Below, one piece after another: positions 17,576 through 20,629 of a DNA stretch of 64,000 bases. The notes beneath the pieces are model-generated. The model did no database searches and was not told the DNA's origin. It worked only from the letters and a program-made list of their open reading frames with translations. The translations under genes and the position numbers were made by a program. Positions within the stretch are counted from its first letter, which is position 1; each line of letters begins with the position of its first letter. Origin of the DNA: Myxococcales bacterium (GTDB lineage Bacteria; Myxococcota_A; Polyangia; Polyangiales; JAFGIB01); assembly GCA_029880325.1 (NCBI GenBank), contig JAOUOP010000013.1:62001-126000 (forward strand), in the 5' to 3' direction.

Positions 17576-17590
17576 TACAGTGCGGCTGTG
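17576..17590 (+). promoter_or_regulatory. -10 hexamer at 6 nt from a GTG start, likely leaderless
   Basis: TACAGT (17576-17581), then 6 nt, then GTG (17588). Same geometry as at 975, 21042 and 26558. No clear -35. Confidence 0.4.
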
Positions 17591-18817
17591 ACGACGCTGC
17601 GACGTAGGAGTTGGGTCGGGCTGGAGCTGCGCGCCGATGGGCGCGGGCTGGTCGTCGAAGGCGTCGACGCGAACGGACCGGCCATGGACGTGCGCACAGG
17701 GGATCGCCTGTTGGCGATCGATGGCGAGCCGGTGAACGGTCTCGACCAGGTGCGACGGCGCATCGCCGCCCTACCCCGCTCGCGGCCGAGTGCGTTGGGC
17801 CTATTGCGGGACGACCGCGAGCTGACGCTGGAGCTGACGGCGCAGCCGGCACCGCTGGAGACGCTCTCAAGGGGCCGCATCGAGCTGGACGAAGCCCACT
17901 GGCGAAGTCACCGCCTGCGGCTGATCTGGAGCTGGCCGGCGGTGCCGCCGCCCTACCGCCTGATTTGGCTGGTGCCGGGCGCGACCTGGCTCTCCGAGGA
18001 ACACTTCGACGCGCCCTGGCATCCGCTGCACAAGTTGGTGCAGCAGCTGACCGCTGGCGGCTTGGCCACCTTGCGCGTGGAGCGCAGCGGCCTGGGCGAC
18101 AGCGAGGGGCCGGCCTGTACGGAGCTGGGCCTCGACGCGGAGCTTCAAGGCCTGCTGGCTGCGCGGGCACGCATCGAGCGCCGGCCGGAGTTGCGCGCAG
18201 GCGCCACCCTGCTCTTCGGGCGCAGCCTCGGCGGCATGGTGGTGGCATTGCTGCAGGCGCAGGTGAAGCCGGCGGGTTGCGCCATCTGGGGCAGCTCGGC
18301 GCGGCCTTGGCCCTCGGCGACGCTGGACTCGACCCTGCAGCAATACCGCCTCAGCGGCCTCGGAGCAGAAGCCCTGGAGCGCAAACGCGTGGACCTGGAG
18401 CACCTGCACCAATTGGTCTACGCGCGCGGCCTGACGCCTCGGGAAGCCTTTGAAGCACAGCCGCAGTTGCAGCACCTGGAGCAGGCTGGCTACCGGGGCA
18501 CGCAGATCTTCGGGCGCACGGCGCGCTTTTTTCAGCAGCTGTCGCGCGAGGATGTGGCGGCGGCCTTCGCCAGCTCGCGTGCGCCGCTGCTGTCGCTGCA
18601 CGGCAGCTGCGATTGGTTGAGCTCCCGCACCGACGCCGAGCACATCGCCGCCCTGTGCGCGCCGCACTCGCGTTTCGAGAGCCTGGCAGGCCTCGACCAT
18701 CACGTGCAACTGCGCGAGAGCCTCGAAGGCGCCTACGCGGAGCCCTGGGGCGGCCACTACAGCCCGTTGCTGGGCAAAGCGCTCTTGCGCTTCGCCGACG
18801 ACGTGATGGGCCCGTGA
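17588..18817 (+). CDS. PDZ domain fused to an alpha/beta-hydrolase
   Basis: 409 residues, no signal peptide. Residues ~8-85 form a PDZ-like domain (RTGDRLLAIDGEPVNGLDQV). The rest is an alpha/beta-hydrolase: LVPGATW as oxyanion-side strand, LRVERSGLGDSEG, the nucleophile elbow FGRSLGGMV (Ser), a late Asp in HGSCDWLSS and the final His in LAGLDHHVQ, so the Ser-Asp-His triad looks complete. It is likely a cytosolic esterase or acyl-transfer enzyme whose partner or substrate peptide binds the PDZ domain (inference). GTG start supported by the -10 at 17576. It converges with the gene ending at 18836, with a small hairpin (ACGCC/GGCGT) between the stops. Confidence 0.75.
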   Translation: MTTLRRRSWVGLELRADGRGLVVEGVDANGPAMDVRTGDRLLAIDGEPVNGLDQVRRRIAALPRSRPSALGLLRDDRELTLELTAQPAPLETLSRGRIELDEAHWRSHRLRLIWSWPAVPPPYRLIWLVPGATWLSEEHFDAPWHPLHKLVQQLTAGGLATLRVERSGLGDSEGPACTELGLDAELQGLLAARARIERRPELRAGATLLFGRSLGGMVVALLQAQVKPAGCAIWGSSARPWPSATLDSTLQQYRLSGLGAEALERKRVDLEHLHQLVYARGLTPREAFEAQPQLQHLEQAGYRGTQIFGRTARFFQQLSREDVAAAFASSRAPLLSLHGSCDWLSSRTDAEHIAALCAPHSRFESLAGLDHHVQLRESLEGAYAEPWGGHYSPLLGKALLRFADDVMGP

Positions 18818-18835: not shown

Positions 18836-19300
18836 TCAGACCCGGGCGCGCGTCTTGGGGTCGGGAAATACGCCGCCGTAGATCGCCACCACGACAAAAC
18901 CCGCGTCGTCGTCCTCGGCTGGCGCGGCGGCGTCGGCCTGCGCGCTGGCGTCCTCAGTGTTCACCGCTTCACTCGAGCCGGAGTCTTGCAGCGCGGGGCT
19001 GGCGTCGACGCTCGCGTCCGATACCGGCTCGCTGCCGCCGGCGTCGACGGCCTGGGCGTCCGGCGCCTCGGTGCTCTCATTCGAGGTGCAGGCTGCGCCC
19101 GCAGTCGAAGCCAGGATGGCCGCGCGCAGGGCATAGCTGGCCGCCCTCGAACGGGGAATGTGCTTGCCGCCGGGGGCGGACATCTTCAGCTGCTGAATTT
19201 CACTCACACTCAACTGGGCATCACAGAAGGGGCAGCGAGTCTCATTCGTATAGACGTGGCGCTGGCAGCCGCCGCACGGAATCAAGGCGTTTTGGGGCAT
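18836..19300 (-). CDS. Small zinc-ribbon protein with C-terminal AIYGG motif; candidate SPASM-maturase substrate
   Basis: 154 residues. N-terminal zinc ribbon: CGGC (Cys9, Cys12) and CPFC (Cys23, Cys26). Then a Ser/Ala/Leu hydrophobic segment (~55-70) ending AGAAC, which could be a membrane anchor or lipobox. An Asp/Ala/Ser-rich linker (~75-133) follows, then a short distinct tail VVVAIYGGVFPDPKT. It overlaps the upstream radical SAM/SPASM gene by 19 bp, so it is translationally coupled to it. The leader-linker-short-conserved-tail design next to a SPASM enzyme suggests it is the modified substrate, with the tail as the site. This is inference; the function is unknown. Confidence 0.7.
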   Translation of the reverse strand: MPQNALIPCGGCQRHVYTNETRCPFCDAQLSVSEIQQLKMSAPGGKHIPRSRAASYALRAAILASTAGAACTSNESTEAPDAQAVDAGGSEPVSDASVDASPALQDSGSSEAVNTEDASAQADAAAPAEDDDAGFVVVAIYGGVFPDPKTRARV

Positions 19301-20478
19301 GTCGACTCCTGACTCTCGGTCATCTCTTCCACAACCAGCTCCCAGCGGCCGTGGTCGAAAGCTTGTCCGGGCGCGCGCTCGCGTAACAAAAGCCGCTCGC
19401 GCAGACCGCGACGGGCGAGCTCCAGCACCCGATGGTGGCAGTAGGGATTGTTTCCCGGGCGCCCGAAGAGGCTGGTGGCGGTCCAGCTACAGCCGCCGTG
19501 GCAGGCCTCGGCATAGTAGCAACTGCGGCAAAAGCCCCACAGTCGCTCCACGCTGCGATCGCGCATGAAGCGCAGGGCGTCGCTCCGTTCCCAGATCGCC
19601 TGCAGCCGGTGGTCGCGGATGTTGGCGCCGGCGTAACCACGCGTGGGCAGCGACGGGCAGCCCTTGATGTCGCCGCTCGACTCGATGCCGAGGGTGCTGC
19701 GTCCGGCGCGGCAAGAGATGTCGCAGCTATCACGCAACTGCCGCCTCAAACGGGACTCGAGCGGCCCGAAGTAGCCGATGTTGTTACCGGGCAAGAACTT
19801 GACGCCCGCCTCGGCGCAGCGCCCGGCGATGCGTTCCAGGGCCGAAAAGAGCGGGACCATGTCGCCGGGCTGGAGCGGCAACTGTGCGTCGTCTGCGGCC
19901 TGGCCGGCCGGAACCGTCATCATCAACTGCCAGCCATGACATCCCTCGACCAGTAGCAGATCGCAGAGTGCATCGAGCTGGGCCAGGTTTTCGCGGTTGA
20001 CCTGGGTGTTGAGGGCGACGGGAAGACCGACCGTCCGGCAGTTTTCCAGGGCGGCCCGCGCCGCACGGTAAGCGCCGTCGACGCCGCGAAGAGCGTCGTG
20101 GGTGGCTTCGAGTCCGTCGATGGACACCGACACGCTCTGCACGCCGGCCTCCCGGGCCTGGCGAGCAACCGAGGGTGAAAGCCCTCGTCCTCCGCTGACC
20201 ATGGCGCAGCTGATGCCTCGGGCGGCGATGGCTCGGGCCACCTGGCGCCAGCCGCGGTAGAGGTAGACCTCGCCGCCGATCAGGGTCACCTCCTGCACGC
20301 CGAAGTCCGCGAGCTGCTCGACCAGGTCGAGGGCCTCGCCTAGCGAAAGCTCGTCAGGTCGGGCGCGCCCAGCCCGCGAGCCGCAGTGACGGCAGCGCAG
20401 GTCGCAGGCCAGGGTCAACTCCCAGACAGCATGCACGGGACGACATGCGCGGTCGATGGGGCGTGGCTCTTGGCCCAA
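19282..20478 (-). CDS. Radical SAM/SPASM domain enzyme
   Basis: About 398 residues if translated from the TTG at 20478; an ATG at 20577 in frame is the outer limit. The radical SAM cluster motif is CDLRCRHC (CxxxCxxC) in VWELTLACDLRCRHCGSRAG. TLIGGEVYLYRGW and a SAM-binding VSVSIDGLEATHDALRG follow. The C-terminal SPASM region has CDISCRAG, DIKGCPSL and CRSCYYAEACHGGC, enough Cys for two auxiliary 4Fe-4S clusters. Such enzymes modify peptides or proteins by radical chemistry. The start codon of the next gene (zinc-ribbon protein) lies inside this gene, so they form one transcript. No transporter or protease is adjacent. Confidence 0.88.
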   Translation of the reverse strand: MGQEPRPIDRACRPVHAVWELTLACDLRCRHCGSRAGRARPDELSLGEALDLVEQLADFGVQEVTLIGGEVYLYRGWRQVARAIAARGISCAMVSGGRGLSPSVARQAREAGVQSVSVSIDGLEATHDALRGVDGAYRAARAALENCRTVGLPVALNTQVNRENLAQLDALCDLLLVEGCHGWQLMMTVPAGQAADDAQLPLQPGDMVPLFSALERIAGRCAEAGVKFLPGNNIGYFGPLESRLRRQLRDSCDISCRAGRSTLGIESSGDIKGCPSLPTRGYAGANIRDHRLQAIWERSDALRFMRDRSVERLWGFCRSCYYAEACHGGCSWTATSLFGRPGNNPYCHHRVLELARRGLRERLLLRERAPGQAFDHGRWELVVEEMTESQESTCPKTP

Positions 20479-20629
20479 CTGGACCCCGCGAACCTGTGAG
20501 CGAGTGCTCGAGTGTAGGGGCAAGCGTCGGGCGGGTCGTTTCTGTGCTCCCCGAACCCCGGCTGCCCGCTGCTGCACGGGGGCAGTGTAGCCTCCGCGGG
20601 TGCGAAGTGCGAGTCACCGGGGTCGCCCG

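Follow-up and report, generated by a model that had tools for sequence, protein, structure and literature searches.

A candidate splicease-like system with a zinc-ribbon X-Tyr-Gly protein and a PDZ-hydrolase in a Myxococcales bacterium

The window analysed here, a stretch of 64,000 nucleotides of a Myxococcales bacterium (contig JAOUOP010000013.1, positions 62,001 to 126,000), contains three neighbouring genes which, on balance, form a splicease-like system of a radical SAM/SPASM enzyme, a zinc-ribbon lipoprotein-type substrate, and a PDZ-α/β-hydrolase. The enzyme (P0002, 431 aa) is encoded on the minus strand at 19282..20577, and the proposed substrate (P0001, 154 aa) on the same strand at 18836..19300. 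The 19-bp overlap of the two genes described in an earlier note on this DNA is present (19282-19300). The same note had stated that no protease, exporter, or immunity gene is adjacent. This was incomplete, as the gene of the PDZ-α/β-hydrolase (P0003, 409 aa; 17588..18817, plus strand) lies 18 bp away in tail-to-tail orientation. The assignment draws on what can be read from the sequence: the homology of the enzyme, its pairing with the small protein, the conservation of the X-Tyr-Gly motif, the lipoprotein-type signal, the ribbon fusions found elsewhere, and the association of the PDZ-hydrolase with a C-terminal Val.

The product of the P0002 gene matches the Pfam families Radical_SAM (E 2e-19) and SPASM (E 3e-6). 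It carries the radical SAM Cys triad at positions 58/62/65 and seven SPASM Cys at positions 289, 307, 350, 353, 359, 363, and 380; all ten cluster-type Cys are near-invariant among the approximately 127 relatives compared. The closest solved folds to its AF2 model (pLDDT 85.6) are SkfB, SuiB, and PqqE. The enzyme end had been placed at 20478, a TTG. The start is probably located further upstream, since the relatives and a second copy of the enzyme conserve the N-terminal RRLPL region, and the GTG at 20577 fits this position. The second copy (L061:8569-9282, contig C111 of the same genome, G000) is truncated: its first 226 aa match at 84% identity, after which it ends early and gives way to unrelated sequence. 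No zinc-ribbon gene was found beside it, and it is either a pseudogene or an assembly or contamination effect.

The best NCBIfam model for P0002 is TIGR04103 (nif11-class maturase 3) with 443 bits (E 7e-133), which does not reach the cut-off of 725. TIGR03913 (GDL-associated maturase) gives 407 bits, below its cut-off of 592 (591.75), and the next family gives 150 bits, so that only these two score near. The fellow members of the P0002 clade score similarly (385-470 bits), while a Nostoc plasmid enzyme lies above the TIGR04103 cut-off with 853 bits and Azospirillum and Acidobacteriota enzymes lie above that of TIGR03913. To judge from these scores, the P0002 clade appears to belong to a third, unnamed set grouped with the nif11-class-3 (PlpX splicease) and GDL maturases. 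We take IPR026482 to be the same family as TIGR04103, under which PlpX then falls. The PlpX subclass is given as IPR026482, and PlpX excises tyramine from Xaa-Tyr-Gly, leaving an α-keto amide (PMC11002830); 939 PlpX-type systems have been predicted (PMC10533398). The position of the enzyme within this named superclade implies that its probable chemistry is already known. The Nostoc TIGR04103 enzyme shares 47% identity with P0002 and has the invariant residues in common with it. At the Nostoc locus, the gene of a Nif11 precursor (end ...GSIALYGLPPELF, ALYGLPPELF) is followed by the enzyme gene and by the gene of a 71-aa small protein. This order matches the published plp layout (PMC11002830) and supports the splicease-like reading of P0002. 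The enzyme was found in 36 of 57 genomes and, class-wide, in 166 of 318 (E 1e-90). Named relatives include Polyangium, Labilithrix, Plesiocystis pacifica, Enhygromyxa, and Nannocystis, together with MAGs labelled as other phyla.

The small protein P0001 shows the architecture that had been described: the pairs C9-x2-C12 and C23-x2-C26, a hydrophobic segment from R50 to C71 that ends in Cys, a D/A/S-rich linker, and Tyr141. It has no NCBIfam family. Its zinc ribbon, C9xxC12...C23xxC26 (19223..19276, minus strand), is the proposed recognition leader; in a search with the family HMM, which contains P0001 in its seed, P0001 was the sole match among the 847 ORFs of the window. Relatives form a large, class-wide family, occur in 23 of 57 genomes, and share a layout of zinc ribbon, internal lipoprotein-type signal ending in Cys, and variable linker with one to five X-Tyr-Gly motifs. 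The enzyme neighbourhoods contain one to four proteins of this type. Within 126 such proteins, the tail Tyr is followed by Gly in 269 of 290 cases (93%) compared with a Gly content of 17% in the tails; this enrichment, together with the single ribbon match in the window, is above chance. None of the 276 Tyr-Gly pairs lies upstream of residue 45. Leu, Ala, Pro, Arg, and Met are the usual residues at X, and Pro stands at the second position past the Gly in 208 cases. In P0001 the motif is Ile140-Tyr141-Gly142 (18875..18883, minus strand), the proposed site of tyramine excision. Tyr141 had correctly been located within VVVAIYGGVFPDPKTRARV, but the tail is longer than assumed and runs on to ...KTRARV, the last residue of which is important. 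Two zinc-ribbon proteins adjoining an enzyme (L144:5901-6362 and L148:2891-4549) have PIYSAAFP and PIYAAAP where the others have Tyr-Gly and represent a natural test of the requirement for Gly.

The pairing of enzyme and substrate is backed by the comparison with relatives. An ORF with a ribbon and with the Tyr-Gly motif past a variable linker, the pattern that the earlier note had named as supportive, lies within 3.5 kb of 117 of 150 distinct enzymes. Enzymes without such a neighbour exist and are not the majority: about one fifth have no ribbon and Tyr-Gly ORF within this distance, some of them at contig ends. Small proteins without the enzyme are likewise not the rule. The enzyme is present in 22 of the 23 genomes with a small-protein match, and in the remaining genome the match covers the linker only. 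The recurrence of Tyr-Gly beside the enzymes also speaks for the earlier choice of Tyr141 as the modified site. Zinc-ribbon X-Tyr-Gly proteins were seen in L028, L030, L031, L034, L035, L038, L116, and L131, where no enzyme turned up in the sequence retrieved around them, the match in L035 lying at a CPAYGGP motif; such proteins are possibly modified in trans. A separate enzyme clade (L087, L090, L095-L097, L099, L100, L120, L121, L123, and L125-L127) has neighbours whose Tyr-Gly is located at the lipobox Cys, in the motifs LSACYG, LAACYG, and LMACYG. As far as these motifs can tell, X of X-Tyr-Gly would here be the lipid-bearing Cys itself.

The proposal that the zinc ribbon is the recognition part gains support from GDL-type systems, in which the same ribbon is fused to the enzyme. 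The substrate-ribbon profile matches GDL-type enzymes at their C-terminus (L260, L265, L266, L173, and L175) and a Tropicibacter enzyme at its N-terminus. The weak match of P0001 to the end of TIGR03913 is explained by the ribbon that the GDL-type enzymes carry. Over all loci, an enzyme-borne ribbon without a ribbon substrate was counted for six enzymes, and the converse, a ribbon substrate with a ribbon-free enzyme, for 109. At two loci, L211 and L269, a stand-alone small ribbon ORF is encoded beside the enzyme; in L269 it is accompanied by a separate protein with PLYGVFIRD and AMYGVVLRH. The peptides adjoining the GDL-type enzymes are DUF1843 proteins, confirmed by Pfam, that have no ribbon and contain X-Tyr-Gly or X-Tyr-Ala close to the domain start (L260:4706-5032, L265:4381-4653, L266:4650-4943, L173, and L175). 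These motifs suggest that DUF1843 proteins may likewise be splicease substrates. Since the ribbon is fused to those enzymes whose peptides are free of it, it probably serves as a portable module for recognition, and its occurrence on either the enzyme or the substrate constitutes Rosetta-stone evidence for a joint function of ribbon and enzyme. The Tropicibacter enzyme with the N-terminal ribbon is encoded on a Tropicibacter oceani plasmid (L174); its gene cluster also encodes another radical SAM protein along with an M23 peptidase and a trypsin-like protease.

The ribbon of P0001 is followed by an Arg and a hydrophobic segment ending in GAAC71 (19088..19153, minus strand), which resembles a lipoprotein signal. 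A hydrophobic 16-mer directly precedes the Cys in 125 of 126 family members, and the residue at -1 is Gly, Ala, or Ser in all 125. A lipobox-like signal is recognizable in 113 of the 126; the GAAC of the window copy is weak. This conservation backs the earlier suggestion that the product is displayed on a membrane. The ribbon, standing in leader position ahead of the internal signal, would be removed together with it.

The PDZ-hydrolase was first flagged by neighbourhood clustering (reduced ORF BLAST) in four loci, the X-Tyr-Gly proteins of which all end in Val. In P0003 the PDZ domain spans approximately residues 4-85 and the catalytic triad is Ser213/Asp342/His371 (Pfam PDZ_2, 4e-8; Hydrolase_4, 7e-9). 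Residues R7, G11, G211-S213-G215, D342, and H371 are conserved in 34 relatives. The carboxylate loop R-R-x-x-phi-G-phi is intact, with R7 and G11 invariant. The AF2 model has a pLDDT of 93.8, and a structure search returned generic esterase/lipase matches only. No signal peptide was seen in P0003. A C-terminal Val is found in 14 of 17 proteins near a PDZ-hydrolase versus 14 of 109 others (Fisher p 1.4e-8, kinship ignored), and per genome the association has a p of 1.6e-7, again ignoring kinship. The proteins in loci retrieved solely through the PDZ gene (L177, L181, three in L188, L189, and L191) end in LWV, LWV, RVV (all three), TIV, and RLV. RVV is also the end of a protein in L252, a locus found via the enzyme in which a PDZ-hydrolase is present. 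Proteins of a second system in L138 and L182-L185 end in Asp. In the tree of the radical SAM enzymes, the window falls into a 13-member clade (support 96), of which 11 members have the hydrolase adjacent and the remaining two encode it at another genomic site. By this association, the C-terminal Val, in P0001 part of Ala-Arg-Val (18839..18847, minus strand), seems to be a fitting ligand for the PDZ domain of the hydrolase. The link is not general to all systems, being present in a minority. Among the additional genomes with a presumed PDZ-hydrolase, G025 and G055 matched in the hydrolase half only, with no PDZ motif on inspection, and G030 has the motif.

Several other explanations have to be weighed against this system. 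The enzyme may act on the Tyr-Gly tail by other radical chemistry, such as Tyr crosslinking, epimerisation, or C-H functionalisation, and excise no tyramine. Such chemistry is compatible with the scores of P0002 below both family cut-offs, with the chemical variety of SkfB, SuiB, and PqqE, and with the Y-A or Y-S that replaces Y-G in two relatives. Against these points stand the identity of X-Tyr-Gly with the known splicease motif, the occurrence of the ALYGLPP core also in the Nostoc TIGR04103 system, and the invariant residues that P0002 shares with the Nostoc enzyme, and we consider such other chemistry unlikely. A sactipeptide or ranthipeptide was rejected, as P0001 has no Cys past Cys71 and thus none in its tail. 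The small protein could also be a zinc-ribbon regulator or cofactor-handling partner instead of a substrate, as ribbons occur in enzyme fusions and, at L211 and L269, as proteins by themselves. A regulator would have no need of one to five Tyr-Gly motifs in a variable tail that has little Tyr otherwise, or of diverging copies in tandem next to a single enzyme, which makes this role very improbable.

The hydrophobic segment, for its part, might be a plain membrane anchor, or Cys71 might stay unlipidated, with the product on the cytosolic side. The weak lipobox of the window copy and the apparently cytosolic hydrolase partner point in this direction; the small residue at -1 of the Cys throughout the 125 relatives and the Arg in the n-region argue for a lipoprotein signal and leave the anchor a doubtful reading. 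It may further be supposed that enzyme and substrate form a genuine pair, that the PDZ-hydrolase is an unrelated neighbour, and that the Val ends reflect the shared ancestry of a few clades. The minority occurrence of the hydrolase and the disregard of kinship in the association test would agree with this, as would the exceptions L170 and L147, which end in Ala and Met. The association is, however, repeated in the separate enzyme clades {L073, L170}, {L160, L188}, and {L177, L181}; in L116 and L191 a PDZ-hydrolase accompanies a Val-ending protein with the enzyme absent from the stretch, and genomes with Val ends and no adjacent hydrolase often encode one elsewhere. A coincidental neighbour is therefore improbable in our view.

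The three-gene system is comparable to several known ones. It shares with PlpXY of Pleurocapsa a homologous SPASM enzyme, an X-Tyr-Gly core, and a substrate gene adjoining the enzyme gene (PMC11002830), but instead of a Nif11/NHLP leader it has a zinc-ribbon leader, a lipoprotein-type signal, and a PDZ-hydrolase partner. Pfam gave no Nif11 match in P0001, in which the ribbon takes the place of the leader; the absence of a Nif11 peptide also separates the system from TIGR04103, its best NCBIfam match. PlpY is a short RRE-like protein. Neighbourhood clustering found no PlpY-like conserved third gene or RRE partner beside the enzymes, and a Nostoc PlpY-like query gave no matches in the 57 relatives' genomes in a search run without a positive control. 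As PlpY was not found and a Nif11-type leader is absent, we do not file the system under PlpXY, although it would work like one. The GDL-motif/DUF1843 system (TIGR03913) has a homologous enzyme (46%), an X-Tyr-Gly peptide, and the same type of ribbon; its peptide is short and its ribbon is part of the enzyme, whereas in the window system the substrate carries the ribbon. The neighbour of P0002 is P0001, and Pfam detected no DUF1843 peptide beside the enzyme; a DUF1843 search of the same genome gave no matches, its controls being silent too. With bacterial lipoproteins (Lgt/LspA substrates) P0001 shares an Arg-containing n-region, a hydrophobic stretch, and Cys after Gly, Ala, or Ser, but its signal is not N-terminal, being preceded by a zinc-ribbon leader of approximately 45 aa. 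The PDZ domain of P0003, with its intact loop and a weak match to MamE, resembles the HtrA/MamE type; it is fused to an α/β-hydrolase and not to a trypsin-like protease. Tyramine splicing at X-Tyr-Gly is already known, so that the system is not categorically new. A ribbon leader on a lipoprotein-type substrate, a ribbon moving between enzyme and substrate, and a PDZ-hydrolase partner were not found in any of the open papers searched, which do not include the survey of widespread splicease systems by Scott et al. 2022 (Chem).

For the chemistry, ribbon recognition, export, and role of the hydrolase we infer the following route. P0002 would bind the zinc ribbon of P0001 and splice tyramine (C8H9NO, about 135 Da) out at I140-Y141-G142. 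Before export, the cytosolic PDZ-hydrolase would dock on the C-terminal Val and trim or check the modified tail. Alternatively, the hydrolase itself may be held or inhibited by the ketoamide, which PDZ docking would set near its active site. The internal signal would then direct the spliced precursor to export, and lipidation of Cys71 and signal peptidase II would take off the ribbon. The product would be a flexible lipoprotein with an electrophilic, protease-inhibitor-like ketoamide tail. As the hydrolase is apparently cytosolic, it must act ahead of export; a cytosolic hydrolase and an exported partner fit together poorly, and the order of steps is the weakest part of the model. We offer only tentatively the wider idea that the ribbon is portable on enzyme, stand-alone protein, or substrate, and that, in the lineage of the window, a PDZ domain presents the ketoamide tail to a serine hydrolase, a dedicated partner that the spliced protein reversibly inhibits or that processes it, ahead of its display as a lipoprotein.

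As a short and portable tag, the zinc ribbon would steer splicease chemistry, a useful property given the present use of this chemistry in protein labelling (PMC10533398). Through the PDZ-hydrolase link, the biological use of the system becomes open to simple binding and inhibition assays. Spliceotide products are reported as protease inhibitors (PMC11117315, citing Scott et al. 2022), and a part in predation or defence is suggested by this activity. The myxobacteria-wide gene set could yield reactive, protease-inhibitor-like proteins.
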